Positions 5,140 to 55,443 of a stretch of DNA of 64,000 nucleotides are shown piece after piece (the stretch's first letter is position 1; each line of letters opens with the position of its first letter). The position numbers and the translations under genes were made by a program. The stretch comes from Malania oleifera (lineage: Eukaryota > Streptophyta > Magnoliopsida > Santalales > Ximeniaceae). Below the pieces are notes generated by a model. The model was not told the origin of the DNA and did no database searches. It saw only the letters and a program-made list of their open reading frames with translations. The DNA lies in assembly GCF_029873635.1 (NCBI RefSeq), contig NC_080423.1, forward strand, positions 97,212,397-97,276,396, read 5' to 3'.

Positions 5140-8100
5140 TTATTGGGAGTTAGCAATGGCTCCATTGTTGTCTTTAGGCAGATGAATTTGGCGTATGATT
5201 CGAAAAGCTGGCAACAGCTCCTCCTTGGATGGTACCTCAGATTCTTTGATGATTGGCAATTCTGAAAACGCTTTCATCCACTGGTCTATCAAAGGGTATT
5301 TTTCAGAGTCAAATACTTTGACAGATGAAGCTGCCTCAATAACTTCCAGCCAAGTAGGCATCCAACCCAACACCATGTCCACTAACCCTATTGTGCTGCC
5401 CCCAAAGAACTTCTTGCCCTTGAGCTCTCCTTCAAGAATCTCTAATGCATGCTTTGCTTGCGCCACTGCCTCCTCTTGCTGCTCTTCCTTGCTATGCAAG
5501 ATTTTCCTCGCAACCTCGCCCAACTAAACAAGCATTATTAATGAAATTCAAATTATTTACATAGTCATAAAATTAAAATGATCATAGGTTTTTTTTTCTA
5601 ACATGAACATAAATATATGAAATTGTTTTCATAATTGATATATATATATATATATATATATATTTATTTATTTATTTTTCTTTAATAAATCAAGCCTGTT
5701 TTAATTTACATACATCTTTTAAATTTTTTCATGACAACTCCTCTTGTATGAGTTATTAGTTGGTCAAGCATTCCATTTAGTAGGCATTTAGTATTATTTT
5801 TTTTTATCTTGTTCAAGCACTGCCTAGTATCAATGCATACAAAAATTCAATAAGCCACAATATTTTTGCTTAAGAATCATGCTTAATGGTATGACCTATT
5901 GGCATGACAAGTATATATATCAAGAAAAATGAGTCTAGAGGTGTGAATAAATGGGAGAAAATCTATATTAGTCCTGAGGCTAAGCTTTATAACTTGAATT
6001 GTTTTTCTATAAAAGATTCTCATGCATAACACAAAATTTTTGGGTAGCTTGTTTATAGAATGATTAGATATATAAAAAATTATTTAAGTCTTATCTTCTT
6101 AAAAAGTCTATTTCACATTTTTAAAATTTTTTTTTCTAGTCACATATCTATGATTTTGAATGTTAGACTGGTTAAATTCAATGCACATTAATTTGCTTTT
6201 TAGATTCCTGAGTTATATTTGATGATAGTCAAGTTGCTATGTCGCATTGTCTATGTAGCTGAGAACCAATTAAAGCATCCAATGAACTCTCTTTTCCCAT
6301 GATTCAAACTTGAGACCTCCATTAATATGAATATCGAGCTTCAATTATTATGATGTTTCTTAAAAGATAGTAACATTACTGAAGTGGCATTCAAACACTT
6401 CTCCATAAATAAATTGAATTTTTTTAAGAAAAATTAGGAGAAAAACATTTTTCCTATTCTAATCATGTCTTTCACTATTATTATATTTGTGTGTGGCTCT
6501 TATACTTAGAAGGATCACAAACAAACAAAGGAAAACATGTGAAAGAAGTCTTCTTGTGCTGGAAGCAAAAGACTCGTCGACGAGTGCTCTGTGCTCGTCG
6601 ACGAGTAGATACTGAGAGTTAGAAAATCTCAGACTAGAAGACTCATCGATGAGAGTATAAACTCCTCGATGAGTGGGCTTTTTTGTCTCGTCAACAAATC
6701 TCCTGTACTCGTCGACGAGTGCGCCTGAGCTGCGAGAAGTTATTTGAATTTGAATAGTGTGACAGTTGGGAATTCTAAGGGAAACCTCCGAGGGCTTGTT
6801 ATATATGTTCTTCTGAGCATATTTTAACAAATAAGAGAGTAAGAGAGGGGTGAGGGAAGAAGAGAAGACCATTGAGTGCATATCTTTGATTTTCATAGCG
6901 AAATATCTTACCGATTGCCCCTGTGGATGTAGGTTTTACCGAACCACGTAATTCCTGGTGTCGTTGCTCTTATCTTTACTCTCTTTACATTGCTATGGTT
7001 GCGGAATAATTCGGTATTCACCATTTACTGTGTTTCAAGTATGTATGTGTGATTCTTTATACAATATTTATTCTGCTACGCATTGTTGGAAAAGACCCTT
7101 ATTTCACAACAACTATAATATTTGAGATTTAATATTATGTCACGCATCTATAATGAGCGATCCAATAATCAATATTAAAATTATATTCATATAATACCTA
7201 TAAAAGTGATTTAGAGGATTCTCTTATTAGCAAAAGGCGAAAAAGACCGTCCTCTGCATGCATATTCGTAGGACACGTGTCTATCATAAGTAATGAAATA
7301 ATTAATGATAAATTATTGCTATCGTACAAATGCATATGATTTATTATTTTATTTGGTCATTCATTGCTCTTGATGGAAACATGTCATATAAATATGTATG
7401 CAAAAAATGATGCTCTGTATTCTTAGACAATAGGTAAAATCTTTATTCTTATTTAAAAAAAAAAAAAAAAGACTTTGAGGCTACAATCAATTAATTATGA
7501 CAATCAGGGATCCCACCAGTTACTCCCACAAGACATAGAAATCAAATACTCTAATTGTAGCATTCTATTGGATGCATTTAACAAACCCGCCACCTACCTT
7601 TAGTTAATTTAAAGGCTAAAAGTAATGAATACCACCTATAAAATTTTGTTTTGAATAAAATATTTTCACACTTGAAATGCATCATTTTTTTAGGCTCAAT
7701 GTTATGGCTTAGTAGCAATATATAATGAATTTTACTAACATCTTAAAACTTTTGTCTTAAATAAAATGATACAATATGTGTGAGCCTTGACCATATCCCC
7801 CAAAGTCCAAATAGAGACAATCCTAAAATTTTAAATGAAAGCAATCTTTTGTTATTATCTGCTTATTTACTTGAAACTTGTCTCCTTTTTGTTTCACTAG
7901 ATCAAAGGAGAAAAGAAAAAAAAAAATTAGCCTTGTCCCCACTATGTAACTTGTGATAAAAGGTTAAATGAAATCATAAGTCAATGTTTGATAAGACATA
8001 AAGTGAAATGGAAAATGTGAAAAATAAAAATGTATTTTATGATAGAAAAACACAATCATCTTTCTAATTTTGTATTATAAATAATTAGTAGAATAAATAA

Positions 8101-9495: not shown

Positions 9496-9586
9496 CTCTC
9501 TCTCTCTCTCTCTCTCTCCTTCTGTGGTTTTAATGCAATGAAAGCTCTGTTGGGCTCCGCCCATCCTACGGTGGTAGCTAGGGGTG

Positions 9587-10960: not shown

Positions 10961-11074
<114 letters not shown>

Positions 11075-11415: not shown

Positions 11416-11731
11416 TGTGACAACTCGAATAAAAATAGAAAACAGTAATAGAAGGAGGAGGTCAACTTCGTTGATGAATACAGGGGATTCGTCTACGAGG
11501 GTATAAAGAGAATTCGTCGACGAAGACAGGATTCGTCAACGAGAAAATACCGAGAGAGGTTTTTGAACAGACTGAATTTCGTCGACGAGAAGTGGATTTC
11601 TTCGATGAAATTATTAAAGGGCTCGTCGACGAATGACGTGGCTCGTCAACGAATCCAGTCCTATAAATATGAAAAATCCAGATTTTAACTTCAAGATTAA
11701 GTAAACTCTCATCCTCTCTCTCCTCCCTTCG

Positions 11732-14136: not shown

Positions 14137-15552
14137 CTGTTTCTATAAACCTGTATAAGCATAGTAATAACTGTAAACTTTCCTGTGAATAACTGTGTAT
14201 CATGATTTAACCCCTCATGACAGCATTGTGCGGCCCGTAGGCGGGATTTACCCTGACTGGCCAACCAAGAATAAATCACTATACTCCATAGTCTGATCAG
14301 CCCTCCTCAACCCATATCTGATGGGGAGCCTGTCCACTCATGGGCTCTATGTGATCGACATTTATACCACGTATTATCTGAATAGGTGGTTGCACTCTAT
14401 ATACTGTATGTAGCTATGGTACCATGTTCTGTAAACTGTATGGTCCAACAGGGTATGATATTATATAATACATCTCTATATACAACTATCTGTCTTACCA
14501 TGATTCTGTAATAACTATATAAATCATGACGCTGTGAAAAATTGAATCTATATCAACTGTGTTTCTGCAATTAACTGTAAATCTGTATGTCAGGGTACTG
14601 TAAAACTGTATAATCATGGTATTTCTGTAATTGCTATAAAATATATTCACTGTCTGTATATTCTGTAAAACATAACTCAGGAAAATACTGTAAAACATAT
14701 TTATGTATTATATCTATATTCTCAAGCCACACAATAATTCTTAAACATATTAATCATACTTGATAAACTATATAAATCTCTACTGTGAATAATACTCTGG
14801 TAGAACATTCATAATTTTATACTGAAATCATACTCAAATAACCTAGCATAGCATATTTCCCTTACCTGTTTCTTGCTAAAATCCCCTACTATAATGGGTC
14901 CAACACCCGCAGGGTTCTCCACTCAATACCCTGAAAACTATAAATCTAAAAAAAAACATTACTATTTCTACGTCTATTACATTTCTTGCAACTGTTGGAA
15001 ACTCAAATTCCGAATAAAAGACCTTACCCTGGATTTGGGATGAATCCCAATTTCGCTCCACCGACAAACCGCTCCGATAGACATGAAGAGAACTTCGCCA
15101 AGAGCGTCGTGGTGGCTTCAGATAGTCGATCCGGCAATTGACAAGATCGAAATCGAAGAGAGATAGAAGAGGGGTCGTAGGAGAGAGTGCAACGCTGTAT
15201 TTCGGAATTAATCCGAAGTTTTGCACTATTTATACTATGGGATTCGTTGACAAGCCACGTCACCTCATCGACGAGTCCTTCAATAATTTCGTCGACGAAC
15301 TTCCTCCTTTGTCGACGAATTCCAATCTATCCCAACAACCTCTCTTGGTATCTTCTCGTCGACGAGGTCCTAAAGAACCCTTGTCGACGAAACCCCTGTA
15401 TTCGTCGACGAGACCTGGGGAAATTTCTTGGAATTATCACCTCCAAAATGCAATGTCGTCGACAAGCGCGAAGTCGACTACCTCCTTTTGTTACTGATTT
15501 CATTTCCCTCTCTCTTTATTATTTAAATACCATTATTTTTTGGATCGTTACA
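13578..15552 (-). mobile_element. Gypsy solo LTR (reverse), unit 1 only
   Basis: About 1,975 bases. The plus strand starts TGTAATGACCTG and ends GGATCGTTACA. It is the same family as the split LTR at 38934-40129 and 50629-50981. Read on the minus strand, the U3 has TCGTCGACGA palindromes (15240-15470), then TATAAATAG at about 15230. The site shows GGGCACAT on the left and ACATAGTTCTG on the right, while the unfilled site in unit 2 reads GGGCACATAGCTCTC (about 28672). This places the insertion exactly, although the duplication itself is partly lost. Confidence 0.82.
14097..14134. repeat. (TA)n microsatellite
   Basis: Nineteen or so TA units inside the reverse LTR. Confidence 0.95.
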
Positions 15553-18199: not shown

Positions 18200-21100
18200 T
18201 TATTGGGAGTTAGCAATGGCTCCATTGTTGTCTTTAGGCAGATGAATTTGGCGTATGATTCGGAAAGTTGGCAACAGCTCCTCCTTGGATGGTACCTCAG
18301 ATTCTTTGATGATTGGTAATTCTGAAAACGCTTTCATCCACTGGTCTATTAAAGGGTATTTTTCAGAGTCAAATACTTTGACAGATGAAGCTGCCTCAAT
18401 AACTTCCAGCCAAGTAGGCATCCAACCCAACACCATGTCCACTAACCCTATTGTGCTGCCCCCAAAGAACTTCTTGCCCTTGAGCTCTCCTTCAAGAATC
18501 TCTAATGCATGCTTTGCTTGCGTCACTGCCTCCTCTTGCTGCTCTTCCTTGCTATGCAAGATTTTCCCCGCAACCTCGCCCAACTAAACATGCATTATTA
18601 ATGAAATTCAAATTATTTACAGTCATAAAATTAAAATGAACATAGGTTTTTTTTTTTTTAACATGAACATAAATATATGAAATTGTTTTCATAGTTGATA
18701 TATTCTTTTTTATTTTTCTTTAATAAATCAAGCCTGTTTTAATTTACATACATCTTTTAAATTTTTTCATGACAACTCCTCTTGTATGAGTTATTAGTTG
18801 GTCAAGCATTCCATTTTGTTGGTATTTAGTATTATTTTTTTTTATCTTGTTCAAGCACTGCCTAGTATCAATGCATACAAAAATTCAATAAGCCACATTA
18901 TTTTTGCTTAAGAATCACGCTTAATTGTATGACCTATTGGCATGGCTAGTATATATATCAAGAAAAATGAGTCTACAGGTGTGAATAAATGGGAGAAAAT
19001 CTATATTAGTCTTGAGGCTATGCTTTATAACTTGAATTGTTTTTCTATAAAAGATTCTCATGCATAACACAAAATATTTGTGTAGCTTGTTTATAAAATG
19101 ATTAGATATATACAAAATTATTTAAAAGTCTTAATCTTCTTAAAAAGTCTCTTTCACATTTATTTAAAATTTTTTTTTCTAGTCACATATCTATGATTTT
19201 GAATGTTAGATTGGTCAAGTTCAATGCACATTTATTTGCTTTTTAGATTCCTGACTTATATTTGATGATTGTCAAGTTGCTATGTCTCATATTGTCTATG
19301 TAGCTGAGAACCAATCAAAGCATCCAATGAACTCTCTTTACCCATAATTCAAACTTGAGACCTCCATTAATATGAATATCGAGCTTCAATTATTATGATG
19401 TTTCTTAAAAGATAGTAACATTACTGAAGTGGTATTCAAACACTTCTCCATAAATAAATTGAATTTTCTTCAAAAAAAATTAGGAGAAAAACATTTTTCC
19501 TATTCTAATCATGTCTTTCACTATTGTTATATTTGTGTGTGGTTCTTATACTTAGTGGCATCACAAACAAACAAAGGAAAACATGTAAGAAAAGTCTTCT
19601 TGTGCTGGCAGCAGAAGACTCGTCGACGAGTGCCCTGTGCTCGTCGACGAGTAAATACTGAGAGTTGGAAAATCTCAGAGTAAAAGACTCATTGACGAGA
19701 GTATAGACTCATCAACAAGTGGGCTTCTTTGTCTCGTAGATGAATCCCCTGTACTCGTGGACGAGTGCGCCTGGGCTGCAAGAAGTTATTTGAATTTTGA
19801 ATTTGAACAGTGTGATGGTTGGGGATTCAGAGGGAAACCTTTGAGAGCTTGTTATATATGTTCTTCTAAGCATATTTTAACAAGTAAGAGAGTAAGAGAG
19901 GGGTGAGAGAAGGAGAGAAGATCATTGAGTGCATATCTTTGATTTTCATAGTGAAATCTCTTACCGATTGCTCCCGTGGATGTAGGATTTGCCGAACCAC
20001 ATAATTCCTGGTGAAGTTGCTCTTATCTTTACTCTCTTTACATTGCCATGGTTGCGGAATAATTCTTTATTCACCATTTACTTTGTTGCAAGTATGTATG
20101 TGTGATTCTTTATACAATGTTTATTCCACTACGCATTGTTAGAAGAGACCCTTATTTCACAACAATTAGCATCAGAGCGTATTTTATGGCCTCTGAATTT
20201 AAGGATCTCATGGTGTAACAAGGCATGGTGATGGTTTATACAGAATTCAACCAGATAGCATGGATGTAACTACTTGGAATGAATTGGGAGCAATCATTCA
20301 ATTTTGTTTGACTAGAGACATGTTGTATCACGTCGTGGATGAGAATTCTCCGACATTAGTTTGGTGAAAACGGGAATGCCGATATATGTCTAAGGGTTTG
20401 TCAAAATCTGCAAGTGTAATGGAGGAAGACTCGGAATGTAGTGATGGAGATTTACTACGTGTTTCATCGGGTTCGAAGTGCCTCATGGGTAATTCTTGGA
20501 TCTTAGTCACCAGATGCTTTTATCCTAGAAAATGGTTTGACATCTACATGTCAGTTTATACTGGTTGTATTTTGATGAAAAATGATATTCCATGTAAAAT
20601 GTTTGTTATTGGAAATGTCAAAATCAAAATGCGTGATGGTGTTGTAAAAGTCATATATGATGTAAAGCATGAATCAGGTCTAAGGAAGAAAGGTTTTTCA
20701 TTTGAAAATTTAGACTGTAATGGATATTGTTACGAGTCTGAATGTGGAGAAATGAAAGTGTGTGAGGATAACTTGATAGTGATGAAAGGGAAAAAGTAGC
20801 AAAAAATATCTATGCACTGCAGGGTGTTACAGTTGTAGGTGGAGTTGCAACTATTGAATCTGAGTCAATTATCCTATGGCAGTATGGTTAAAGCATATGA
20901 GTGACTACATGTGTTCAAATACTTAGGAACAAATGATGATAGCATAAGGGGATAGACATATGTATTTCGTGTGTTTATCACAAAGGGTGAAGAGACCCAA
21001 ACCCAAAAAATAAAAGAAAAATAAATGAAAGAAAAGGAAAATATATAAAGGAAAGGAAAAATAAGAAAAAAAAGGAAAAGAGTTTGGTTAGGACCAAACC

Positions 21101-34233: not shown

Positions 34234-34302
<69 letters not shown>

Positions 34303-36145: not shown

Positions 36146-36461
36146 ATTTGGTATTAAAACTTAGGTTGGTAGGTTTTGTAGACTTTAGAGTGCAGCGGAA
36201 ATGATACAAGAGTATTAGACAGGATTTGAGGTTTTGTTCTGCAGATTAGAGACAGGACTTCCGTGGTGTTTTTTGTGTTTTTCCTAAGGTGATGATTTCA
36301 AGAAAACCATAGTAAACTACTGTCGTGTTGTGTTTCTAAAGTGTGGGACTAAATCTTGAATGAGGATAGGGATGTCAAGGTAAAGGGATGATATGAGATT
36401 TTAGTTAGATGTGTAAATTATAAGAATAGGGTCCTTGAGCCATGTTTATTGTCTTTTTAGG

Positions 36462-38930: not shown

Positions 38931-38933
38931 AGG

Positions 38934-38964
38934 TGTAACGACCTCAAAATTAAGACATTATTAA

Positions 38965-39005
<41 letters not shown>

Positions 39006-40129
39006 GAACTACTCTGATACCCCCTGCTATGAAACTCGAGCCTCAGAAGGCACTGGGGTAAATCTGAATATAAAATCATACCTATGCAGCAGAAACGTAA
39101 ACCATACATCCATACACATCATACAATACCATAAATCTGTATTTCCAAACCATAACTATATAATAGATTTCTCTCAAAAAATATCTGTCCCAAAATAGAA
39201 AACCCTGCACAAACTTACCCTCTAAACCAGGGTAATCAATGAACTCCCTATCCGCGAGCCTGATCTGCTCGCTTAGCTGGCTCTCTTAAAAAATGTTAAA
39301 GTCATGGGGTGAGTCGACGCTCAGTAAGTGGAAATATGGTATTACTAGTGTGTGGCGACTAAGTTGCGCACTGTTAAAATAACAACTGAACTGTAATTAA
39401 ATAGTAAATCCGTAAAACATGTCTATCATTTTCACAATTTAAAATATAACTATATCATCTGAATTTTCTACTTTTCATACTGCTAATATCATATTATACT
39501 CATCATATACTATAAAACTGTATACATATACAGAACCGTACTTTATCCCTAGAATTCTTTATGTTATGATATGATCCCTCATGATAGCGTTGTGTGGCCT
39601 GTAGGCGAGACTTAATCTGGTCGGCCCTCCAGATAAGTCAATATACTCTACACTACCTCAGCCTGGCCAAACTGCGTACTCTCCTAGGCGCGGGACTTGC
39701 TTCTACGTCGTCAAACTGGCCCCCTCAACCCAATGAACTGGGGAGCTGCATCCTCTCCTAGCACAGTTTGACGGTACCCACACACTATCTGAGATATGTG
39801 GTTGCACTCTATTATGTATATAGCAACGGTACCGTGCTCTGTATTCTTTATCTGTATCTTTTTGTAATCATTCCTCAGGAATCTGATACTATATCTATAC
39901 TCTTTTACTATTTTCATCATGTTTCCAAAATTACCATAACGCTATCTTTCTGTACTGTAAACTCTGTAATTTCTATATTTTGTATCAGTAGCATCTTGAT
40001 GCTATCTCTGTATATTTATCTGTATACTCTATATGTTATGGTAATAGGAAACATGACAAACTATAAACACTGTATATACTGTTCTGAATAAAGCTGTAAT
40101 ATACTGATCTGAGTAAAACTATAATATAC
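38934..40129 (-). mobile_element. Reverse-oriented Gypsy solo LTR nested in the outer element, part 1
   Basis: The plus strand begins TGTAACGACCTC immediately after TAAGG (38929-38933). The other end, GGGGCATTACA, is at 50981, followed by TAAGG (50982-50986), so the whole block is one insertion site. This part resembles 13578-14800. It contains an (ATT)n tract (38962-39002). Confidence 0.85.
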
Positions 40130-42466
40130 TGTAACAACCCGAATTTTTAAATGAAATTTAACTAATAAAGAAAGGGGAATGGAAACAAAAATAAAGAGGG
40201 AAGCTGAAAAGCTTCGTTGACAAACACAGGGTTTCGTCGACGAAGGCTTCAAGGATTTCGTCGACGAACACAGGGCTTCGTCGACGAAGAATTACCGAGA
40301 GGGATTCTGGAGCCGATTGCATTTTGTCGATGAAGACTGGATTTCGTTGACGAAATCTGTGAAGAACTTGTCGACGAAGGTTGGGCTCGTCGACGAATTC
40401 CGCCGCCTATAAACATGAAAAATCCGATTTTATCTTCAATTGCAAGCCTCCTCTCCACACTCTCTCTCTCTCCTTTTCGGCTCTCTCACTCTCTCTCTTC
40501 AATTTTGGGCTGGTTTTACGCCGGATCGAAGATTTGAGGCTACCATGACACTCTTGGAGAAATTCCCTACGAGTTTGCCGGAGCGGATCGTTGGGAAAAC
40601 GAAGTTGGAAATCATCCCTGGGTTGAGGTAAGGCTTTTTAAGCCAAACTAGACTTTATGGTAGTTATAGAAATTGATGTACGCATGAAAATACTGATGTT
40701 TAGTACTGGGGGTTTTGAGTTTCAGGGTGTTGATCAGGAAGTCATACGGGGGTTAGCCTAGGATATTTTGGGGGCTTTTTCAGTAGCTAGGTAAGGGAGT
40801 AAACTAAAGTAGTTCTTTTCCATGCAAACTATTATTGATTATAAGTAAATTTATTTTCAGAAAAGCATATGATATACCTGTATATTATAGATGAAATGTA
40901 CATTTAGGAAATACTGCTATTATGATTAAACGTATATGTATGTATGAGATGATAGAAAAGCACGATTTTAGAATATGAAGTATGACTTTTAACAAAGCAT
41001 GTGTGGCATGAATATTATTTTACGAGAAATGAGATATGATATGTATGCTTTTACGTATAAAACACATTTTTAGGTATTTTGAAAAGACGAGTTATGCTAC
41101 ATTGAGTTTGAGGAATATATGATAAAAGAGTTATTTTTAGAAGGTAAATACCTGAAACGATTCGGTACGAGGCCGTATTTATGTTATCGGCGCGAGGCCG
41201 TATTTATTATGCTATCGGCACGAGGCCATATTATTATGTTATCGACACGAGGCTGTATTTATGTTATCGGCGCGAGGCCATATTTATCATGCTATCGGCG
41301 CGAGGCCGTATTATTATGTTATTGGCACGAGGCCGTATTTATGTTATCGGCGCGAGGCCGTATTTATTATGCTATCGGCGCGTGGCCGTATTATTATGTT
41401 ATCGGCACGAGGCAGTATTTATGTTATTGGCGCGAGGCTGTATTTATTATGCTATCGGCGCGAGGCCGTATTATTATGTTATCAGCACGAGGCCGTATTT
41501 ATGTTATCGGCGCGAGGCCGTATTTATTATGCTATCGGTGCGAGGCCGTATCTATGTTTTCGGAACGAGGCCGTGTTGATGTTACGTATGTTCATGTATT
41601 ATATGTTATTGTAACCATGATGTTAGTTTAGTTCAGACCAGGAGCTCGGTACCGTAGCTATGGGTAGATTTTGGCACGAGACCATATTAGTGCTAACCAT
41701 CCCATGAGGGGATGGGAGATGGATAGTCGATGTGGCTTTTAGTAGAGTGTGGACGTCCACCTGGCAGTCCGGACCAGGGTGTGGCGAGCTCATTGCACTT
41801 ACAGACATATTTGATTCGACAGTGGTCAGCCAGCCATTGTCAGGTCCTGCATTCGGGTTACACAACCTGTCATAGGGGTAATACATGACATTAGCTAGCT
41901 ATTCATCATGGGTTGATTTTTCAGTATCACAGTTATACCAGATGTTTATATACCTTACGAGTTATTGGCATATATGAAAATGTATGATTATTTCGAATGA
42001 TATGATGAATGTTTTCCGACTTATGAAATGTACAGTATATGTATAATTGCACTAAATATTCATGTTGCCACACAGCTGTATTTAGTTTATTTTCCCTTAC
42101 TAAGAAGTGTCTCATCCCCAACATTATTAAATTTTTCAGGAGCCCCTGAGAGACTGGCGGGTCAAGGCCGCCATTGAGATTAGTGAGATTACCCCGTGAG
42201 GAGGGTAAGATTTTGTACTAGGGTTAGAATTATTTTGTGTTTGACCCTAGAGATATTCTGATGTATATAAGAATGTATAGTAGTACAGTATCATAATGTT
42301 ATAAAAGCTCTGGTATTATGTTTTGTGGATGGATGTATGGATTTTTATGTTTACTGCTATTAGGAATTCCGCTGTGTATGACAAGTGTCCCCGTTACCCA
42401 CGGGTTCGGGTTGACCATTTGATTTATTATGTTGTATTTTGTTATATTTTAATGAGGGACGTTACA
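40130..42466 (+). repeat. 5' LTR of the second Gypsy element
   Basis: 2,337 bases. U3 palindromes of the TTCGTCGACGAA type lie at 40210-40400, followed by CTATAAACATG at about 40408. Its longest special feature is the minisatellite at 41160-41580. Confidence 0.88.
41160..41580 (+). repeat. Minisatellite of CGGCGCGAGGCCGTATTTATG-like units
   Basis: About 17 units of 23-26 bases, alternating in a higher-order pattern (units followed by TTATGTTAT, TTATTATGCTAT or ATTATTATGTTAT). All three plus-strand frames stay open over it, so the long frames here are repeat artefacts, not genes. Other LTRs of these families have only three to six related units (12475-12590, 34988-35190, 54300-54460). Confidence 0.92.
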
Positions 42467-42784
42467 TTTGGTATCAGAGCTTAGGATAATAGGTTCTGTA
42501 GACTCTAGAGTGCAGCAGTAATAATACCAGAGTATAGGATAAGGGAATTTGAGGTCTGGTTTTGTAGGCTAGATGTAGGACTTCCGTGGTGGTTTGTATG
42601 ATTTTCCTGGGGTGATAATTTCAGGAAATTCATTGTAAACTATCGTCGGGTTGGGTATCTAGGTTGCAAGATTGAACCTTGAATTGAGATTAAGAGAGAT
42701 GGGTTAATTAGGAGAAATATACTATATGAGTTGAGTGATACACGTAGGGAAAGAGGTTTTGAGTTAAGTTACCTGTTTTTCAGG

Positions 42785-45484
42785 ATGGACCTTGGTGGCA
42801 ATAGTGCCCACGCCAGTGGGAGTGAGGGTGTTGGACCCTCAGGCGCTGCGGGTAGTGATTCAGATGCAGTTTTACGCAGCGTAACACAGCAAGTTATGGC
42901 AGAAATTGCCAGGAGTTCGAAGGAACATGGTGGTCTTTTTGTAGGCCACGGTAGCTCGATAGAGAAGTTTATTAAGATGAGTCCTCTAACTTTCTCAAGA
43001 GGAACAGATCCTGCAGTTGCTGAGAACTGGGTGTAGGAGATGGAGAAGATATTCGCAGTGCTGCAGTGCTCAGAGGAGCAAAAGGTGCTGTTTGCCCCTA
43101 CAGACTGACTGGAGAGGCCGAGAGATGGTGGTCGGCAGTGAAACTTTTAGAGCAGCAGAGGACTATTCCTGTAGAGATTACGTGGGAACGGTTTAAGGAG
43201 ATTTTCTTTGACAGGTATTTTCCAGCCTCTTCCAAGGAGGCTAAGATTGCAGAGTTCCTGAATCTGAAGCAAGGACAGCTGTCGGTACAGCAATACGCGG
43301 TGAGGTTTATTGAGTTATCCCGCTTCGCCACGTATATCATATTAGATGAGGTAAAGAAGGTACGACAGTTTGAAAGAGGCATGAGGAGAGAAATATACAA
43401 GCAGGTATCGATAATGAAGTTGTAGGACTTCGCTGAGCTAGTGGATAGAGCCACTATAGCAGAGATTGGTGATCGGTTAAAGGCTGAGGAGCAGAGACAG
43501 AAGAAGAGATCCATACCTTCTGGTTCCCAGCAGGGGGGGTGGACGTGGTACATGGAAGAGAGGTGGCTATTATAAAGGCCAGAGGCAGGAGACCGGGAAT
43601 CGCGGTTTCCAGGGTGCACAGGCATCTCCAGTTTGCCCATATTGTGGGAAGAAACACCTGGGGGAGTGTCGTGCTGGGCAAAGTGTCTACTACAGGTGTG
43701 GGGAGTCAGGGCATATGATGAGAGAGTGTCCTACACAGACTGGTACGGCTCCTGCTCCTAGACGTGCACAAGGAGGTTACCAGGCGCCATGAGGAGGCCA
43801 GCAGAGGAATACGGCCGCAGCCAGAGTTTTTGCTTTGACGCCAGGCGACACTGAGGCGGTCGGCGATGTGGTGACAAGTATTGTTGTTTTCATTTCAAGT
43901 TATTGCACTTTTCGATTCTGGTGCCACACATTCGTTTGTGTCCTTGGGGTGTGCTAAATTATGTAGGGTGGAAATGCAATCATTAGATGTTGAGTTGTTA
44001 GTGGCTACACTGACTGGGTCAGCAGTGAGATGTAGTTGGGTACTTAGTGGATGTCCAGTTGATGTTTAGGGGGAAGATCTATATGCTGATTTGGTGGCAT
44101 TAGATATGCACGAGTTTGACATTATTTTTGGCATGGATTGGCTAGTGGCTAATTCTGCTATTATAGACTGTCGTGCTAGAGAAGTGATATTCAGACCTCC
44201 AGGGAAACTAGAATTTAGATTTACAGGGTCACGAGTGCAGTCTTTACCTCAGATAGTCTCAGCTGTTCAGGCGAAGAGACTGCTTTAGAATGGCTGTTTG
44301 GGATTCGTGGCTTTTGTAAAAGAAATGTCAGAAAATGAATTAAAGCTCATTAATACGCCTGTGGTGAAAGAATTTATAGATGTATTTCCAAATGAATTAC
44401 CAGGTTTGCCGCCTGATCGTGAGGTAGATTTCCCTATTGATCTACTTCTAGATACAACGCCGATTTCTAAAACATCGTACCAAATGGCGCCGGCAGAGTT
44501 GGCCGAACTGAAGGATCAGTTGCAGGATTTGTTAGATAAAGGCTTCATACGGCCTAGTGTATCTCCATGGGGAGCTAATGTTCTATTTATGAAGAAGAAG
44601 GACGGGACTATGAGGATGTGTATAGATTACAGGGAGATTAATGAAGTGACCATTAAGAACAAATATCCTCTACCCCGTATTGATGATTTGTTTGACCAGC
44701 TCCAGGGTACACGAGTGTATTCGAAAATTGACCTCAGATCTTGCTACCATCAGGTGAAGGTGAAAGCAGAAGACATCTCAAAGATGGCCTTCAGGACCAG
44801 GTACGGGCATTACGAGTTTCTTGTTATGTCATTTGGTTTGACGAATGCTCCTACGGTATTTATGGACTTGATGAACAGAGTCTTCCATCGATACCTAGAT
44901 CAGTTTGTTGTTGTGTTTATTGATGATGTATTGGTCTATTCAAGGGGTTATGAGGAGCATGAGATGCACCTGAGGCAGGTTTTGCAAACACTTCGGGAGA
45001 AGAAGTTATACGCCAAATTCAGTAAATGTGAAATTTGGCTTGAGAAGGTCGTGTTCTTAGGGCATGTTATTTCTGGAGATGGTACTTCTGTAGATCCCAG
45101 TAAGATTGAGGCGGTGGTGAATTGGGCTAGACCGAGGAACGTCTAGGAGATCAGGAGTTTCTTGGGGTTAGTCGAATATTACCGTCGTTTTGTCGAGGGG
45201 TTCTCAGCCTTATCAATGCCTTTGACACGACTGACCAGGAAGAATGCCAGATTTGAGTGGGACGACAGCTGTGAGCAGAGCTTTCAGGAGCTGAAGTAGA
45301 GATTAGTCACAGTACCGGTATTGATCATCCCATCTGGGGGTGAGGGTTACACTATTTACAGTGATGCGTCCTTGAAGAGACTTGGCTGTGTGTTGATGCA
45401 GTATGGTAGGGTAGTGGCATATGCATTTAGACAGTTGAAAGAGTACGAAAAGAACTACCCTACCCACGACCTTGAGTTGGCTTG
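42785..45484 (+). pseudogene. Gypsy gag-pol region (inner element), broken and truncated
   Basis: Includes the retroviral-type gag core (GEAERWWSAVKLLEQQRT, 43120), the zinc knuckle, the protease DSG motif, reverse transcriptase with [14 protein letters not shown] (about 44905-44945), and the first part of RNase H. No integrase is present on this element. Confidence 0.85.
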
Positions 45485-46388
45485 TTTCATTTTAAAACAG
45501 TAGGCAGAGCTGGTTTGAGAATGGGTTTTGGGGTAAGAGCTAGGCCTTGGGATATTTTGAAATTGGACTCATGGGGTTTTAAAATGGGTGTTGGGTTAGC
45601 CCAAATGGTCATGTTTAAATACTTGGAGGTGCTTTCAATATTTTCTAAATTAATTTGTTTGTGTTGGAAGGCTATTCTTCAGAAATTAGTTGATCATGAA
45701 AACTAAAACATATCAATGTACTTTGAGCAAACCGGACTGCGTCTTACCTTCCACAGTGGACGCAACCCCGCAAGCCCTGTTGTAATCATTTTTTTTTTCT
45801 TCTATAATTATGCCTAAATATTCATCTGAATTAATGATTATATTTATATGACTGAGAATTATGTTCACCTTGTGGTGTGCTTTGCAGTTTGAACCATTGT
45901 AGAATTAATAAATTGCCTCATTGCCCCCCCCCCCTTTAATTTGGTCTCAATTTTTTGCACCAGTTGTGGAAATCCAAGTCCTGGATTAAAGGCTTCCATC
46001 AATACAATACACTCATACTAATAGATAATATTTAGAAACATAAATTTCATGACTTGAATTTAAATTTATGAATTTAAAAAAGATTCAATAATATAATTTT
46101 TGGGGTGAGAATGTTGCATGATCTGCGCAGGTAGAAGGGTCTTTTCCAAATGATTTGTTTAGGTGCAACAAAGGTGTGCATTTACGGTTAATGTCAACGG
46201 TATCAGCAAAGGTTTGTCTGTGTTTGTGTGTCCCTGCCTCTATTTTGTATCGCTTTTAGATTTTAGATTTTTGATTATTCTGTGTTACATGTTTGCATAT
46301 CGTTAGATGTTTGGATTCTTTTGATTTCAACAACATGGAAGATTTGAAAATCCACCTTCCTCGGTCGTCAGTCATAAGAGTTTATACC

Positions 46389-46431
<43 letters not shown>

Positions 46432-47858
46432 GTGCGACACTCAATTCCAGATCTCCACGCACATGATTTCTTCTAGGTATGGATCTTGTCCTTCTAAAAG
46501 TCTCAGCTTTTGTAGATTTTAATTTCCATTTTGGCCAGTTTATTGGTTTCGGGACTCAAATCTATTTTTATTTTTTAAAAATTTTCTTCTAGTGATGGTT
46601 GACATTTGGGCCCACAAGTTGATCAATAAGCACAAATTGAGATAATTTGAAAATAAGGCTTTCAAATAATTTAACTAGAACGCCTAATATGGTATAAATG
46701 TCTTGAAAAATTTCACCTTGAGAGGCACGAGTCAAAAAGAAAGTCCTTATAATTGAAGCAACATCCTTGAAAATGTCAATTAGGTTGCAAAGTATAATGC
46801 ACTTAGGGCGATTGTTTCTCTAGTGCGTCTAGTTTGTAAAAATGGTTTGAATGAGTAATGTTAAAAGTCAGAGCTTGTGATGTCACAAGTCCGTAGGTCT
46901 TTACATTTTCAAGTTTTAATAGATACTCCAGATAATTGTTAATATATTTATTCTGAGAGTATTGATATCATTTGTAATATAAATAATTGTTATTGGATTA
47001 TGACAATCTTCTTTTAATGAAGTTATTACGAACAATGAATAATCCGTAAAGTAACTTAAGGAGTCTGACAATTTCAACTATTATCATGATTTAATGAGAC
47101 AAAAAGTAAATGACTATCAAGTGAATATATAGCTTTAAGTGTGACAATACTTTAATAAGCATATTTATTAATGACATTTAAGATAAAGAAAAATAATGGT
47201 CAGAAAAGGAGTTGGTTGTTAAATTTTGTAGCTCGTAACTAAGCTTAGGGACATTTCCTTTATAGAGGTCAAACTTCGGGCACCCTAAAATAATATTATT
47301 TATTATTTTTATTTTATTTTTTTGAGATGAACGAGGTTTAGGTAAAACTTTTTTAAACCGGTTTCTAAAATAGTTGCCCAAAAAATCAGCCCTACTTATG
47401 AATAAGTGTGAGAAATTGTCTAACTAAAGGGTTGATTCCTTGTACATAGATGAACTAATCCATGCTAGGGTTTACAAATACGCAAACTAATGCATAAATA
47501 GGCTACCTACAAGGAATATGGTTATAACAAACTCTGCCAGTGCATCTAAATGTTACTAGGTGGCATTTCTATTAATGTTATGGAAACTGCACTTTGTTTG
47601 TGGGGATCATAAAACCCTTAGAACCTTGACTATACACATTGTTAAAAAGCCTTGTGTCTCTTCATACAGTAATTGAAGCTGTAGCTTGTAGGTGTGGTAC
47701 ACATGATGTGTGCTTGCACTTTTTAGTTCATATTCTAGTTTGTGGATTTAATCTTTCTTCTATCATTTGCATATCTTTTTATTTTTTATAAGACGTGCCT
47801 TCACTGGGGTTCCACTCATTTATTCCTTATTTAACCACATGTGTTTTTCCTTTTGTAG
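45485..47858. other. No gene recognised inside the CACTA-like segment
   Basis: Unassigned sequence with a C-run near 45925 and a (GA)n tract at 46391-46428, which is followed by a 16-codon frame of no known similarity. I looked for the preceding sulfate transporter exons here and did not find them. Confidence 0.45.
46391..46428. repeat. (GA)n microsatellite
   Basis: About 19 GA units. Confidence 0.95.
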
Positions 47859-49002
47859 TTCTCATGGCCCCCTTTTGTGATGGGATCTGTCATTCTTGCA
47901 GTACTTTTGATTATGAAGCACTTGGTATGAGATGATTGTATTTTTTTATAAACTAAGTACTTGTTAATTTTTTATTTAATTTTAATTTTGAAGTTTATGT
48001 TCGGGGAAAATCAAGGAAGCATTTACGATTCCTGTGAGCAACCGGTCCCCTTACAGCTGTTGCTTTGGGTACAACTTTTGTGAAAATATTTCATCCATCT
48101 TCCATTTCTTTGGTGAGAATAGCATGAATCTAACTCATTTTAAACTATTGGGTATTCAATTTAACAATAAGGTATAAATTGCAAAAGTGACAACAACATG
48201 AATAGTCAATTTTCTATTAAAAAAAACCTGAATAGTCAATTAATCATATAAGTTAAGATTTCCAGATTTAAATATAAAAGATGTTCATATATCAAGATAC
48301 AAATAATTTGTGCTTGTTATAAGTTAAGCTGATATGATTCTTTTACTGAAATGGTGGCTATTGCTGCCAACAAGTGGTCCGTTCTCTAATCTTCTTTTTC
48401 ATACACCACCCACTCAGGGGATATATGTAGATACCAATTCAACGACTAGTTTTTAAGCCCTATCTTTGCTTATAGTAAAAATACATATATTTATGTGGCT
48501 TATTCTAATTGTTACATGTGGCCTTACCAACTCTGTGCCCCCTGGCAGACTTTCAAACCAGCCTTGTGTAGTTTTAGTTCATTTGTTATTTCATTGTTTA
48601 TTTATTTATTTGTTCATATGTGTCTTTACTGTTTTTGTCTCAGTTAAATTTTATCATACAAACTTGTTCTGGAATTTCATTTTAATTGAAGTTTAATATA
48701 AAGGTTAGTAAATGTTGGGTTGTTGTTTTAGGTTGGAGATATGCCTGAGGGCCTCCCAAAATTTTTTGTCCCCAAAAATTTTAGTTATGCAAAGTCTTTG
48801 ATTCCTACCGCAATGCTTAATACTGGTGTTGCTATATTGGTAAGAGAAGTTAGGTTGGCCATTATGATTTTTATTTTTTTTTAAATTAAATTTGTGAAGT
48901 TGATTTTTGATGAACCATTACTTTTGGAACTCAAAGGAATCTGTTGGAATTGCTAAAGCATTGGCTGCAAAGAATGGATATGAGTTAGATTCAAATCAAG
49001 AG
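47859..49002 (+). pseudogene. SULTR4: Group 4 sulfate transporter gene fragment, four exons with introns
   Basis: Four consecutive blocks match the middle of plant SULTR4 (vacuolar sulfate exporter). 47859-47924 encodes FSWPPFVMGSVILAVLLIMK. 48005-48112 encodes GKSRKHLRFL..ATGPLTAVAL. 48732-48839 encodes VGDMPEGLPKFFVPKNFSYA. 48937-49002 encodes ESVGIAKALAAKNGYELDSN. Lengths are 66, 108, 108 and 66 bases, all phase 0, with GT donors throughout. Damage: TGA at 48035-48037 replaces the Arg of RFLRATGP, and the second exon is preceded by GG instead of AG. No upstream exons (N-terminal membrane spans) or downstream exons (from FGLGVAN onward, including the STAS domain) were found. Because introns are kept, this is a DNA-level copy, not a retrocopy. 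It sits in a CACTA-like element inside nested retrotransposons and cannot make a transporter. Confidence 0.88.
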
Positions 49003-50154
49003 GTATGTTGAAACTGTAAATGCTTATTGATCCCAGCCGCTGTGCATTATGCCCAGCTCAAAAAATGAACCTGTTGTCTTTGAGGTATGATCATTAATAC
49101 TCTTATTTTATTTGAATCATCTTTATTGTCCAGAAAATATTTGCCAATTGGGTATGTCAATATAGCATATAATGTGTTTGGCTTGGGAAAAAATAGTCCT
49201 TGTCAAACTAAGCCTTGCTTGGTTTTTATTTGGTCTTGCCTTTCCTGTATTTTCAACATGGGTCTGGCTTGGCTGCAATTTTAGCCTTGTCAAACTCTTA
49301 GGACAGAAAAATTTTCTGGTTTTTAGAACTTAAATATATTGAAGGGTCTTCTTTGTAGTTGTATAATCCACTGGGTGTTGTCAAGCACCGCAATAAGCTT
49401 GCTGGATTCAGATAATCCAAAATATAGTGTATCTATTAATTTTAAGGTCCATGAATACTAATCAACACAACAATAAATCAATATTATTTTAATTTTAGTA
49501 ATTACATATAGGGGGGTGATTGTAGAGTTACAAGCCTACATGATAGAAGGTCGAACGAGTTTTAAAATAGTTCGTTGATTTACTTTTTGTCACATAATTC
49601 ATATGTCACGAATATATGATTGTTACATTATTTAATGCTTATTATATGAAGGTCTTGTGCACTCGCAAAATTCATTACTAGTTGGATTATTGTAAACTGT
49701 TTATTATAAACACCTAGGTTTGGAGCATATCTCTATGGAAAATGTCATATTTACAGGAGAAATGCTATCAAAATTTTTTAAAAAACGTATACTAATTTTT
49801 TTAACTTTCTTAATTTGTAGGGTTTGCAACTGTGACAACGTCAGGACGATGTCGTGCGCTACGGATGCATCTTTTCACTTTTTTTGTTATCTGAACAGAT
49901 GAGATGTATTTGAATTTGCATAATGTATTTGTATTTAAATTTGAATTTGTATAAATGTATTTGAATTTGAATTTGAATTTGTATAATATATTTGTATTTA
50001 AATTTGAATTACAATTTTAAATAATTTATGAATTTTATTGCAATTATGGTTTAATGTTATGTATAAGAAAATGTAATTTAATTATAATTTTTTACAGGAA
50101 TTAATAATTGGAAAAAAATTAAATTCACTAATAATTATCCAATTTAAGTATTAG
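49003..50154. other. No gene recognised, internal CACTA-like sequence
   Basis: AT-rich. 49910-50010 has repeated TTTGAATTTG/TTTGTATTTAAATTTG words. No further sulfate transporter exon was found. Confidence 0.45.
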
Positions 50155-50628
50155 TGACGGTTTCAAAATCGTCACTAATACTATGTTTTTAGTGATGGTT
50201 CTGCAGAGCAATAGTGACGGTTCTAAAACCGTCACTAATAATAGAACATTAGTAACGGTTTTAAAACCGTCACTAATAATAGAGCAATAGTGACGGTTTT
50301 AGAACCGTCACTAATAATAGAGCATTAGTGATGGTTTTAAAATCGTCACTAATAATGGAGCAATAGTGACGATTTTTGGTCGATCCGGTATAGAATCTAT
50401 GGTGACGGGCTTAAGCTTTTAGTGACAGTTTTAATCCGTCACTAATACTCTATTATTAGTGACGGTTTAAAAATTTCGTCACTAATAAGTATTAGTAACG
50501 GCAGGTATAGCGACTAATTGAAAATCGTCCCTAATACTTAGAAAACCGTCACTAATACTAGTAGTGACGGTTTTGTGAGTATTAGTGACGATTTAAAACC
50601 GTCACTAATAACCTTCTTTTTTGTAGTG
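50155..50628. repeat. CACTA subterminal repeats and terminus
   Basis: About 20 copies of TTAGTGACGGTTTTAAAACC-like units in both orientations (motif TAGTGACGGTTTT and its complement AAAACCGTCACTA), ending at the CACTACAAAAAAG terminus. Such arrays are the transposase-binding regions of CACTA elements. They can fold into many short hairpins. Confidence 0.85.
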
Positions 50629-50981
50629 AAATTTGGGTTTTCACTATTTATAGAGTCGGATTTGTTGACGAGTCCTTTAATAATTTTGTCGACGAACTTC
50701 CTTTCTCATCGACGAATTTCAGACTATCCAAAAACTCTTCTCGGTATCTTCTCATCGACGAGGCATGGTGTGGCTTCGTCGACGAGGTCCCCTTATGCGC
50801 TTGTCGACGAACTCCCTGTGTTCGTCGACAGGGAGTTTGTCGACAAGGCCCTATGTGTTACTTCCGGGTTATTCCATCCAAAATGTAATGTCGTCGATGA
50901 AAGCTACTGCTTCCTTCTGTTTCTATTTTCATTTCCCTCTTTCTTTATTATTTAAATATCATTATTCTTCGGGGCATTACA
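50629..50981 (-). mobile_element. Reverse-oriented Gypsy solo LTR, part 2
   Basis: Remainder of the LTR begun at 38934. On the minus strand it starts at 50981 and holds TCGTCGACGA-type palindromes (50660-50900). The TATA-like CTATAAATAG lies at about 50647-50656. It is followed by the TAAGG target duplication. Compared with 13578-15552, the LTR middle is not represented. Confidence 0.82.
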
Positions 50982-50986
50982 TAAGG

Positions 50987-52970
50987 ATTGTGAGCAAAGC
51001 TTCCAGGAATTGAAACAGAGGCTTGTCATTGCACCGGTTTTGATCATTCTGTTAGGGGGTGATGGTTACGTAATTTACAGTAATGCGTCTTTGAAAGGGC
51101 TCGACTGTGTATTAATGCAGCATGGTAGGGTTGTAGCTAATGCCTTTCGATAGTTGAAAGAGTATGAAAAGAACTACCCTACCCACGATCTAGAATTAGC
51201 TGTAGTGGTGCATGCGTTGAAGATTTGGAGGCATTACTTGTATGGTGAGAGATACGAGATATTCTCCGATCACAAAATTTTGAAGTACTTCTTCACTCAA
51301 AAGGAGCTAAACATGAGACAGAGACGATAGTTAGAACTTATTAAAGATTATGACTGCACTATTAGTTACCACTTAGGGAAAGAAAATGTGGTAGTTGATG
51401 CTCTGAGCAGAAAATCAGTAGGACCAGCACTGGCAGCTCTAGAGGTTCAGCATCCGATCCAAATAGACCTAAAGAGACTTGGTGTAAAGTTGGTAGAGAG
51501 TGATCCTCAGGCATTTATCGCTAGCCTGGTGGTGCAGCCTACTCTACAGGAAATGATTAAGATGGCTCAGAGAGATGATGCAGAATTAGTAGAGTTGATA
51601 GCTGAGGTGCAGGACGAACAAGAAGATGAATTTAGTATTTCTGATGACGGGTCCTTGAGGTTCTGTTCCAGGTTATGCATGCCTGCAGACGCTGATATTA
51701 GAAGGACGATTTTAAAGGAGGCTCACAAGTCCTTGTACATGGTTCACTCAGGTAGTACTAAGATGTATAAGGATCTGCAAGAGTCTTACTAGTGAAGCGG
51801 CATGAAGAGGGAAATCGCCAAGTTCGTACAACAGTGTTTGACGTGCGAACAAGTAAAGGTTAAGCACCAGAGGCCGACGGGCCAGTTGCAGCCACTTTAC
51901 AGCCTAGAGTGGAAGTGGGATCATGTATCTATGGACTTTGTGATGGGTTTGCCATCGGAACTACATGGTTAGAATGCTATTTGGGTGGTCGTTGATAGAT
52001 TGACAAAGGCCGCTCACTTTATTCCTATTAAGGTCAACTATTTCATGGATAGGCTGGCAGAGATTTATGATTAGGAGATAATCCGTTTTCATGGTGTGCC
52101 AGTGTCTATAGTGTCAGACTAAGACCCACTTTTCACATCACGATTTTGGAGGAGCTTTTAGGAGGCTCTGGATTAGCATGACATTTCATCCTCAGACGGA
52201 CGGCCAGACTAAGTGGGTGATTCAGATATTAGAAGATATGTTGCGAGCGAGCGTGTTGGATTTTGGGGGTAGTTGGACCCAGTATATGCCGCTCGTAGAA
52301 TTTGCATACAATAACAGTTATCAGGCCAGCATCGACATGACACCTTATGAGGCGCTCTATGGTAGGAGATGTTGTTCTCCTCCATACTGGGATGAGATAG
52401 GTGAGCGGCAAATTGTGGGGCTAGAGTTAGTGCAGCAGGCATATGACAAAGTTTGGCTCATTAGAGACAGGATCAGTGCAGTTCAGAGCTATCAGAAGAG
52501 CTACATTGACACTCGCCACCGGAAGTTGGAATTTGAAGTTGGGGACCATGTATTTTTGAAGATAACGCCTTTAAAGGGAATTAAGGGGTTTGGGAGGAAG
52601 GGTAAGTTGAGCCCTAGGTTCATTAGCCCTTTCGAGATATTTGAAAGAGTGGAATAGTGGCTTATTGGCTAACTTTACCATCAACTTTATCTAGAATTCA
52701 CAACGTATTCCATGTTTCCATGTTGAGGAAATACGTCCTAGACCCCTCCTATGTCATCAGTTATGCCGAGTAAGAACTCAGTGACACTTTGGCTTATGAA
52801 GAAACTCCTGTGCAGATTATGGATAGAAAGGAACATGAATTGCGCAATAAGAGGATTCTATTAGTGAAAGTCCTATGGCGAAATCATGTGATAGAAGAAG
52901 CCTTATGGGAGCTCGAGGAGCAGATACGACAGAAATGCCTGCACTTATTCAGTGGAGATCAGGACTAGGT
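50987..52970 (+). pseudogene. Gypsy RNase H-integrase region (outer element), broken
   Basis: Continuation of the outer element after the nested block. RNase H pieces ([12 protein letters not shown]-type, about 51215) come first, followed by the connection LSRKSVGPALAALEV (about 51400). The integrase part includes MTFHPQTDGQT (52178) and EALYGRRCCSPPYWDE (about 52350). The C-terminal GPY-like and chromodomain-like region runs to about 52970. Several breaks. Confidence 0.85.
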
Positions 52971-53252
52971 ATATGGGTAATGTAAATGTAGTATGATTTA
53001 ATTTTATGAAAAACAAGATGAGACATGTATGAGTGGTATTGTAGGTTATAGAATAGGTAGTAGATAGTATTTTGGTTGTGGGAGAATTTTATTTTATGTG
53101 TATGTAATCTCCCAGGACCCAGAATGTAACCACGGTATTCCTTCGCCACAAGTGAGGGTAAGTAATAAAATAAGTAGTCCATTTTCTTTTAAAGGACGGT
53201 GTCAATACAGATAGTAAATTTCGAGGACGAAATTTTTATAAGGAGGGGAGAA

Positions 53253-55443
53253 TGTAGAGACTCGAAGAATTATAGTAATCAAATAATAAGAGAAAGAGAG
53301 AAAAAAAAATTTTCTTAAGGATTTCAACAGGGTCTCGTCAACGAGTGAAGAAGTTCTCGTCGACGAGCAGGGGTCTTGGGCTCATCGAGGGGGACATACG
53401 TCTCGTCAACGAGAAGTTACTGAAAAGACTGTTTCCGGACCCTGAAACTTGTTGACGAGGAGAAGGTGTTCGTCTACAAGCTCCCTTCATTGACTCGTCG
53501 ATGAGGAAATGTGACTCGCTGAGGAGGTCACGTGGACAAGTTTTCTATATAAGCCCAAGAACCCATTTTTCAGCGGGGAAAAATTACAGAATCTCTCTCT
53601 CTCTCTCTCTCCTACGACTCTCTCCCCTTTCTCTCTAGAAATTCGGCCCCGTTCTCCGTCAGTTTGACGATCGGAAGCCACCACGTCACTCCTGTGAAGA
53701 TTCTCTACAAATATGTTGGAGTGATTTGTGGGTTAAGCTAACTTGAGAATCATCCCAAAATTTGGGTAAGTTGATTATTTTAATATTTATTAAGGTATTT
53801 GGTATTTTTAGGTTGAGGAAAATATTAGATGAGTTTATACTGAGATTTTGTTGGGGGAAATGCAATTTCAAGGTGTTGAACTGGGGAACACATGAGTGTA
53901 ATTTTGGAGTAATTTGTGGGCTTTTTCATAAGTAAGGTACGGGGATGAATTAAGTCAGTATTTTCATGAAATTATTTATTAATATTCAGCTTTTATTTTC
54001 CAGGAAATTATGTATGTTATAGAACTAAGTTTGGAAATACTGCTGTTAATAGAAATATGATTTTAATACAGTTCAGCAGGAAATATGATTATATACATAT
54101 TTATGAATAGAACAATATTTACTTTTGTCTGGCATGGGTATAAAATTATATGATTTTACGTAATATCAGAATATTATGTTTTCAGAATCAGCATGTTATT
54201 ACTGTTTTCAAGAAGATATTAAAAACGATAAGGGAATTATGTTTTAAGTATGGTATTGAAACAGTACAGAGATTTCAAACTATGTATATTCAAATATATG
54301 CCAGCCTAGGGGCAGTGGTTTAATATGACATGTCGACTTTAGGGCTGTGATTTCCATATGATATGCTATGCCGGCATAAAGGCCGTGGATTTTATGTTTT
54401 ACTATGGCGGCGTAAGGGCCGTGATTTATAAGATACAAATTGCTGGTATAAGGGCCGTGATTTTTATGTTATGATATGTAAAATTCATGAAAATATTATC
54501 TTGACTGATATTATTATGAAACTATTATGTATCATTATTTGAGATTTACTATATGTTATCAGAACCCAGATGGTTTGGTTTAGGCTTTCATGAAGCACGG
54601 TACCGTAGCTATATGATCACGATCATGTTTATGTTAGTGCTACCACTTGTAGTAAGGGGTAGTGGGAGATTGACAGTCGATGTGGTTTTAAGGTAGTGCA
54701 TGCATCCCATTGGTGTCTGGACCAAGAGGGGCATACCCATCGTACTGACAAACTTATGTTGATCTAGCGTGGTGGGCCAGCCATTGCTAGGTCTCGTCTT
54801 CGGGCCGCACAACCTAATCATGTGAGGGTAAGACATGACACCAACCAACTATCCATCCAGGGTGTTATTTCATGTACAATTATATATGATGATTTCATGT
54901 ATAGAAACTCAGTATATTATATCATGTTATGATAAATTATGTTTTAAACAGATATGAAACAGACGACTTGATTAGATATGGTTTATGTACTGTTATATGT
55001 ATAACACAAAAATACTCATGTTACCACATATTGATATTAGTTTATTTCCCTTACTGAGAGGTGTTTTACCCCAGCTATATAAACATTTCAGGATCCCCAA
55101 ATAGAAGAGCGGGTAGAGCTCTGCAATGTTAGAGTTCTACTGTTCTACCCTGTCTAAAGGGTAAGTCATTTTGCTAGGGTCGACAGATTTATGGGTGGCG
55201 ACCCTAGGACACTTTTTGGATTTTGGGATGTGTGTATGCATATAACAATTGTAGTAAAATTTTGGTATTGTGTTGGATGGATGATTTGATATGTATATAA
55301 TTTTACGTTTCCCGCTGCTTAGGTATCAACGTTATATTTCAAGTATATCCCTGGTATTCATGAGTCCGAGTTGATTATGTTTTACCAGATTTATTATGTT
55401 ATTGTGAAAAAAAAATTTATGGTAAAATAGGCAGGTCGTTACA
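53253..55443 (+). repeat. 3' LTR of the large Gypsy element
   Basis: 2,191 bases, TGTAGAGACTCG to AGGTCGTTACA. It mirrors the 5' LTR, with a shorter (TC)n and diverged short tandem units. Confidence 0.9.

Follow-up and report, generated by a model that had tools for sequence, protein, structure and literature searches.

The question raised by this locus is how two unrelated kinds of long terminal repeat (LTR) come to carry the same clustered palindrome. The locus is a 64,000-nt stretch of the Malania oleifera genome (NC_080423.1, positions 97,212,397 to 97,276,396, scanned as C7:97212397-97276396; hereafter, the window), in which LTRs of both Ty1/copia (Copia) and Ty3/gypsy (gypsy) retrotransposons contain arrays of a 12-bp palindrome, CTCGTCGACGAG, with the core TCGTCGACGA. 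An earlier, sequence-only reading of the window had left two explanations side by side: convergent recruitment of one host factor, or exchange of U3 modules. On balance, we think that a single composite U3 module, located close to the promoter, underlies all of the clusters, and that it was exchanged between Copia and gypsy elements and is probably read by a dimer as an enhancer.

When up to two mismatches to CTCGTCGACGAG are allowed, the window contains 43 sites, against 0.16 expected from 100 dinucleotide shuffles (the largest count in any shuffle was 1). The sequence-only reading had named nine LTR stretches as holding the clusters, and indeed all 43 sites fall within them (5, 4, and 4 sites in the Copia LTRs C1 to C3; 6, 6, 4, 5, 4, and 5 in the gypsy LTRs G1 to G6) (Table 1). 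Perfect 12-mers account for 7 of the 43. When scoring is guided by site spacing, C1 to C3 have 6, 6, and 4 sites and each gypsy LTR has 6 to 9. Enrichment over a control is also found genome-wide. The host genome as scanned (1,494,336,490 bases in 510 contigs) has 29,470 perfect copies of CTCGTCGACGAG, compared with 36 of the reversed 12-mer, a control that is likewise palindromic and has the same composition but no CpG. We also sampled 20 stretches of 10 kb, placed at round coordinates across ten contigs; sites with no more than two mismatches number 65 in them, versus 4 for the control, and 10 of these stretches contain 15 clusters of at least three good sites. Extrapolation from this base of only 200 kb gives a density of ~75 arrays per Mb, which would amount, as an order of magnitude, to 100,000 arrays genome-wide.

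The spacing of the sites is restricted. Of 117 clusters, 47 fell short of three good sites and were dropped, and the analysis of architecture used the remaining 70, which together have 527 sites. The 457 steps between neighboring sites are 19–22 bp (235 steps), 24–26 bp (117), or 44–51 bp (78), with 27 of other lengths and none of 23 or 27–37 bp. In the common gypsy form, a quartet of sites stepped by about 21, 25, and 21 bp is followed by a linker and then by a second quartet with like steps; the linker step is about 46 bp in one class of arrays and about 51 bp in another. The Copia LTRs have a six-site version of the array. Pairs of perfect decamers separated by gaps of 2–31 nt number 20,683 genome-wide (control, 0), and among the matches listed (83 plus-strand pairs at the start of contig C1) the steps are 19, 20, 21, 24, 25, and 26 bp only.

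Gypsy arrays were oriented by a TATA box no more than 26 nt from a site, which was possible for 45 of 65 clusters (the 20 without such a TATA box were dropped), and 22 of the 45 have eight sites in register. The distance from the last site to the TATA box is 8 nt in 20 arrays, 9–11 nt in 3, and 17–20 nt in 22. The earlier reading had placed the gypsy sites just upstream of the likely TATA box; 42 of the 45 oriented arrays are found at one of two distances (8 or 17–20 nt) that are about one helical turn apart. When right quartets were compared between gypsy arrays (175 pairs, 525 comparisons), intervals differed by 0 bp in 340 cases, 1 bp in 168, and 2 bp in 17, and in the gypsy flanks gaps of more than 2 bp number 232 of 1,493; it should be noted that this comparison is biased toward regular arrays, because sites must be recognized to be counted, and that the pairs are not independent. 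Taken together, the conserved dyad sites, restricted steps, and fixed gypsy TATA distance would fit a protein-bound enhancer array.

Regular arrays of a palindromic unit might also arise through passive, minisatellite-like expansion, with no function at all. The left quartet of G4 does score as a tandem repeat, and loci L199 (617-960) and L204 (263-945) have extra units, in arrays that are longer or doubled relative to the eight-site form, which suggests that array units can expand. However, the regular steps hold across LTRs, the array is present in LTRs that are not homologous, and the A/T positions of the palindrome are near-fixed while the spacers diverge (see below), which weakens this explanation to the point that we consider it very improbable.

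At the 60 window sites defined by this architecture, departures from the 12-mer occur at 66 of 360 CpG positions (57 of them transitions) and at 44 of 120 outer bases (all transitions), compared with 4 of 240 inner A/T positions. Between gypsy loci, identity at the A/T positions is 0.905–1.000 per slot, versus 0.34–0.61 in the spacers. Each perfect site has three CpGs, and 115 of the 125 CpGs in the window arrays (summed) lie within palindromes. The sequence-only reading had proposed a dense CpG methylation target as one possibility. The predominance of transitions (57 of 66) is consistent with that proposal, but it indicates damage of the methylation type rather than methylation as the purpose of the sites; three CpGs per site and their decay would fit methylation of silent copies.

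The palindromes could instead act in RNA or as single strands, with adjacent sites forming hairpins in the LTR transcript that feed or evade silencing by small interfering RNAs, as has been discussed for maize Sireviruses. Folding of the array RNA is strong (mean z of −4.4 in 25 of the 45 gypsy modules and −3.6 in 14 Copia modules), and maize Sirevirus LTR palindromes have been described as small-RNA hotspots (Bousios et al. 2016, as cited in PMC5311732 and PMC10760457). Yet the z values do not discriminate, since any palindromic array folds, and a hairpin function needs neither a fixed step nor a fixed TATA distance. In addition, asymmetric outer bases are kept in some slots (e.g., C...A in slot 5 of the Copia array, in 17–18 of 18 copies). 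We thus regard this explanation as quite unlikely.

The carriers of the arrays belong to a single lineage of gypsy LTRs and a single Copia group. Downstream flanks join 44 of the 45 oriented gypsy arrays into a single LTR lineage, and the exception, window array G5, joins the gypsy component through its array flanks. Outside the window, 59 of 61 clusters belong to this component and 2 to Copia. The gypsy carriers have Retrotrans_gag, RVP_2, and RVT_1 domains, as is characteristic of Ty3/gypsy elements. Chromoviruses have a chromodomain at the end of their integrase, and the Chromo match in the gypsy carriers is weak (E = 0.0018, 18.6 bits, under the 25.1-bit cutoff). On the Copia side, Pol_BBD is found in the window element, and a relative elsewhere in the genome (L155) has a Copia-type reverse transcriptase (RVT_2, E = 5.7e-30) beside its array-bearing LTR.

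Some earlier statements about the carriers needed revision. The six gypsy LTRs had been assigned to three families; all six have the array, but the families prove to be related to each other, and the arrays at 15.2 and 50.7 kb, although real, are on the minus strand. Similarly, the array is found in each of the three Copia LTRs, but these are not independent, because C1 looks like a solo LTR and C2 and C3 look like the two LTRs of one Copia element, and they sit at corresponding intronic positions in a tandemly duplicated pair of glutathione S-transferase (GST) genes (flanks 85%–93% alike). A target-site duplication of the C2/C3 element was looked for and not found. A second Copia family in the window (58.3–62.4 kb) has no site with three or fewer mismatches in its three LTR stretches; therefore, the motif is not universal in Copia. 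The absence of the array from this family also argues against old shared inheritance, that is, retention of the module by both superfamilies from the distant past. In its favor, spacers can lose recognizability while sites persist, but the split between Copia and gypsy long predates the host plant, and we give this explanation very little credence.

Outside the array, we found nothing that relates the Copia and gypsy LTRs. A blastn comparison with 7-base words of five Copia LTR stretches against 65 gypsy sequences gave a best E of 0.03, and the same comparison with a gypsy control query recovered 38 of these 65 sequences, among them its own LTR. The premise that the two kinds of LTR are not homologous thus survives for the sequence around the array. 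Within the array, they have in common the step pattern (about 21, 25, 20–21, and 44–51 bp) and a 13-nt box that comes immediately after the linker-opening palindrome and has the same position and orientation in both. Scored with a table built from 43 gypsy linkers against a background of 399,520 13-mers, the Copia boxes have background fractions of 2.5e-5 (C1), 3.5e-5 (C2), 2.5e-5 (L180), 9.8e-5 (L155), and 7.6e-4 (C3), in the forward orientation only. A comparison across the whole linker agrees with the box in four of the five Copia linkers and is weak in C3. Among 20 further copies of the Copia family (L215–L234), taken among the best matches to C2, the linker is present in 19, with TAGATACCGAGAG in 7 and AAGATACCGAGAG in 1 and with box scores of 4.4 to 21.0; AAGATACCGAGAG opens 3 of the 43 gypsy linkers. 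The two Copia LTRs L155 and L180 are diverged, with a step of 71 bp across the linker, in which the box seems, by eye, to occur twice.

A second shared stretch lies in the doublets. The 9-nt spacers of two Copia doublets, read as reverse complement, match the spacer of the first doublet in gypsy arrays of the 46-class. Among 24 spacer pairings in two orientations, these matches have background fractions of 4e-4 and 1e-4 and mean identities of 0.65 and 0.67, versus 0.22–0.52 for other pairings. These tests used the 18 of 22 Copia copies (L215–L234, C1, and C2) that are complete enough, and C3, L155, and L180 were left aside. The linker also contains an inverted repeat beyond chance in the 51-class (p = 0.003) and in Copia (p = 0.01), but not in the 46-class.

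Because the step pattern, the linker box, and the inverted doublet spacer are shared and there is no similarity outside the array, we favor exchange of a U3 module over convergence on one site. As to the two explanations left side by side originally, exchange accounts for these features, and convergence on a single site explains the shared box and spacer poorly.

Several points weigh against exchange. The stretches in common are no longer than 13 and 9 nt, and we had spotted them by eye ahead of testing. A Smith–Waterman comparison of all spacers of the window arrays was near-negative (36 comparisons, best p = 0.007), and a Copia–gypsy signal in the spacers did not emerge until the slots were aligned and further copies were included. 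The TATA-like motif of the Copia LTRs is 74–87 nt from the array, compared with 8–20 nt in gypsy, so the promoter geometry of the two is not identical. The Copia copies represent one family group rather than many independent events, and thus the sharing may be a single event. Finally, we found no array-free sister Copia LTR, which would show gain of the array or the direction of exchange.

Some of these points would be expected if the Copia and gypsy arrays arose independently for the same host factor or factor pair, with protein contacts setting the spacing. Such convergence would account for the different Copia TATA distance, the inverted doublet spacer, and the near-negative first test of all spacers. 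Furthermore, sites persist in gypsy arrays whose spacers have diverged to the identities given above, which means that selection can hold geometry. Against this, the linker box is in the same place and the same orientation in both superfamilies, and spacers that look neutral match when inverted. Overall, we consider independent recruitment unlikely. A further form of the explanation is convergence on a composite of two sites.

The module so proposed combines as many as eight palindromic operators of 12 bp, set on a fixed lattice (a quartet of about 21-25-21 on either side of a linker), with the 13-nt linker box, and in gypsy LTRs it is placed at a fixed distance from the TATA box. A dimer may bind each palindrome, several dimers may act jointly as an enhancer, and CpG methylation of the sites would accompany or cause silencing and block the factor. 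Binding of the palindrome by one dimeric factor is plausible. None of the known plant factors considered as candidates fits the palindrome. The data suggest that a control switch passed between two unrelated kinds of transposon, and it is probably read by one regulatory protein. More speculatively, the palindromes could have served as joints or seams at which doublets were inverted and rejoined, given that one Copia doublet has the opposite orientation to its gypsy counterpart. Tentatively, we also put forward the fullest version, in which a portable enhancer cassette crossed the Ty1/copia–Ty3/gypsy boundary, with palindromes as both operators and seams, spread to on the order of 100,000 LTRs, and came under one dimeric, methylation-sensitive regulator.

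The closest known system is that of Sireviruses (Ty1/copia), the LTRs of which have repeated-motif (RM) boxes (Bousios et al. 2010, PMC2829016). These are multiple dyad-symmetric, CpG-containing palindromes that are located in the upper LTR half and precede the TATA box; they form CpG islands and were proposed to be regulatory; the arrays described here are likewise repeated dyad-symmetric palindromes in the LTR upstream of the TATA box. The differences are that the RM core is CGG-CCG (in all but Tnd-1) rather than TCGTCGACGA, that RM boxes are reported as specific to Sireviruses, whereas most carriers here are gypsy, with Copia in addition, and that the excerpts of PMC2829016 available to us mention no fixed spacing, whereas here there are a fixed lattice and a linker box. 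Maize Sirevirus LTRs also have palindrome clusters in their cis-region (PMC5311732, PMC10760457). In maize Helitrons, moreover, no motif is more frequent in structured regions than the Sirevirus palindrome (10.7%) (PMC10760457), so that the occurrence of one palindrome in two different kinds of transposon has a precedent, although the excerpts of these two papers mention no sharing between Copia and gypsy.

Among gypsy elements, the Del lineage is a probable relative of the carriers described here, and like them it has LTRs with CpG-rich regulatory parts, namely CpG islands, although these are reported to be lacking in eudicot Del LTRs; the accessible text of PMC4029996 never uses the word palindrome. 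ONSEN (with HSF) and EVADE (with WRKY) provide examples of sites for host stress factors in an LTR promoter, but the sites are different, and neither an eight-site lattice nor sharing across superfamilies is described in the portion of PMC12786077 at hand. In the literature surveyed, as far as its searchable text extends, we found no report of a palindrome array common to Copia and gypsy. The letters of the 12-mer had no match in that text; five variants did, in 11 papers, and the 10 of these that were listed have unrelated titles. Therefore, Copia–gypsy sharing and the rigid geometry look new, and palindromic U3 arrays are already known from Sireviruses. A pattern scan also gave matches in viral (32 stretches) and prokaryotic (at least 118) contigs, which we took to be chance repeats in GC-rich genes; blastn of these loci with the arrays gave matches of 31–33 nt only, and the arrays had no match to plasmids or phages (one blastn search each).

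In the published M. oleifera assembly, Copia elements make up 28.9% and Gypsy elements 30.0% (PMC10199050). Were families of both superfamilies to use a common promoter module, one host factor or one epigenetic change could be enough to activate or silence the two together, and this would show that regulatory sequence moves between retrotransposon superfamilies. Should the cassette version be true, much of the retrotransposon load of this genome would be under one dimeric, methylation-sensitive regulator. The rigid lattice makes the idea of a shared module testable, as operator number, helical phase, and CpG methylation can all be varied.

Table 1. Array-bearing LTRs and their elements in the window (window coordinates)
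Feature	Position	Strand	Details
Copia LTR C1 array	6573..6719	+	Six palindromes, steps 21, 48, 20, 25, 21; linker box 6606-6618; TATA-like motif 6800
Copia LTR C2 array	19619..19765	+	Six palindromes, steps as C1; linker box 19652-19664; TATA-like motif 19853
Copia LTR C3 array	24352..24453	+	Four palindromes, steps 21, 48, 21, without the middle part; linker box 24385-24397 matches less well
Gypsy LTR G1 array	11467..11653	+	Eight palindromes, steps 21, 25, 19, 46, 20, 24, 20
G1 linker box	11544-11556		TATAAA of G1 at 11662, 8 nt past last site
Gypsy LTR G2 array	15243..15466	-	An additional site 54 bp upstream; 8 nt from last site to TATA
Gypsy LTR G3 array, 5' LTR of element A	34024..34170	+	Right quartet shortened; TATA about 34190
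Gypsy LTR G4 array, 5' LTR of element B	40213..40397	+	Eight palindromes, mostly of TTC...GAA form, steps 20, 24, 20, 46, 20, 24, 19; TATAAA at 40408
Gypsy LTR G5 array	50661..50901	-	TATA 8 nt past last site
Gypsy LTR G6 array, 3' LTR of element A	53334..53526	+	Eight slots, two degenerate, steps 22, 25, 21, 46, 21, 25, 21; TATA about 53546
Copia element, LTRs C2 and C3	19505..24838 (outer ends approximate)	+	Pol_BBD at 20368-20799
Gypsy element A	33941..55443	+	LTRs 33941-36145 and 53253-55443; gypsy pol domains, weak chromodomain match

The tandem duplication of the GST gene spans window positions 4607-31105 on the minus strand, with the Copia insertion in the same intron of both copies. 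The first exon matches GST_N, the second was read by eye, and no match was obtained when a GST exon was used to search for homologues. The LTRs of gypsy element A are 89% identical over 2,118 aligned bases, and insertions nested within the element, among them element B and the minus-strand LTR G5, appear to have split it. The LTR of element B contains an 80-bp CpG-rich tandem repeat (5.3 copies, 41162-41584), to which a 28-bp array in the G1 LTR (12508-12583) looks related. A 38-bp tandem repeat (4.5 copies, 50205-50376), the unit of which contains an inverted repeat, adjoins self-complementary stretches at 50149-50501 and is perhaps part of a DNA transposon.

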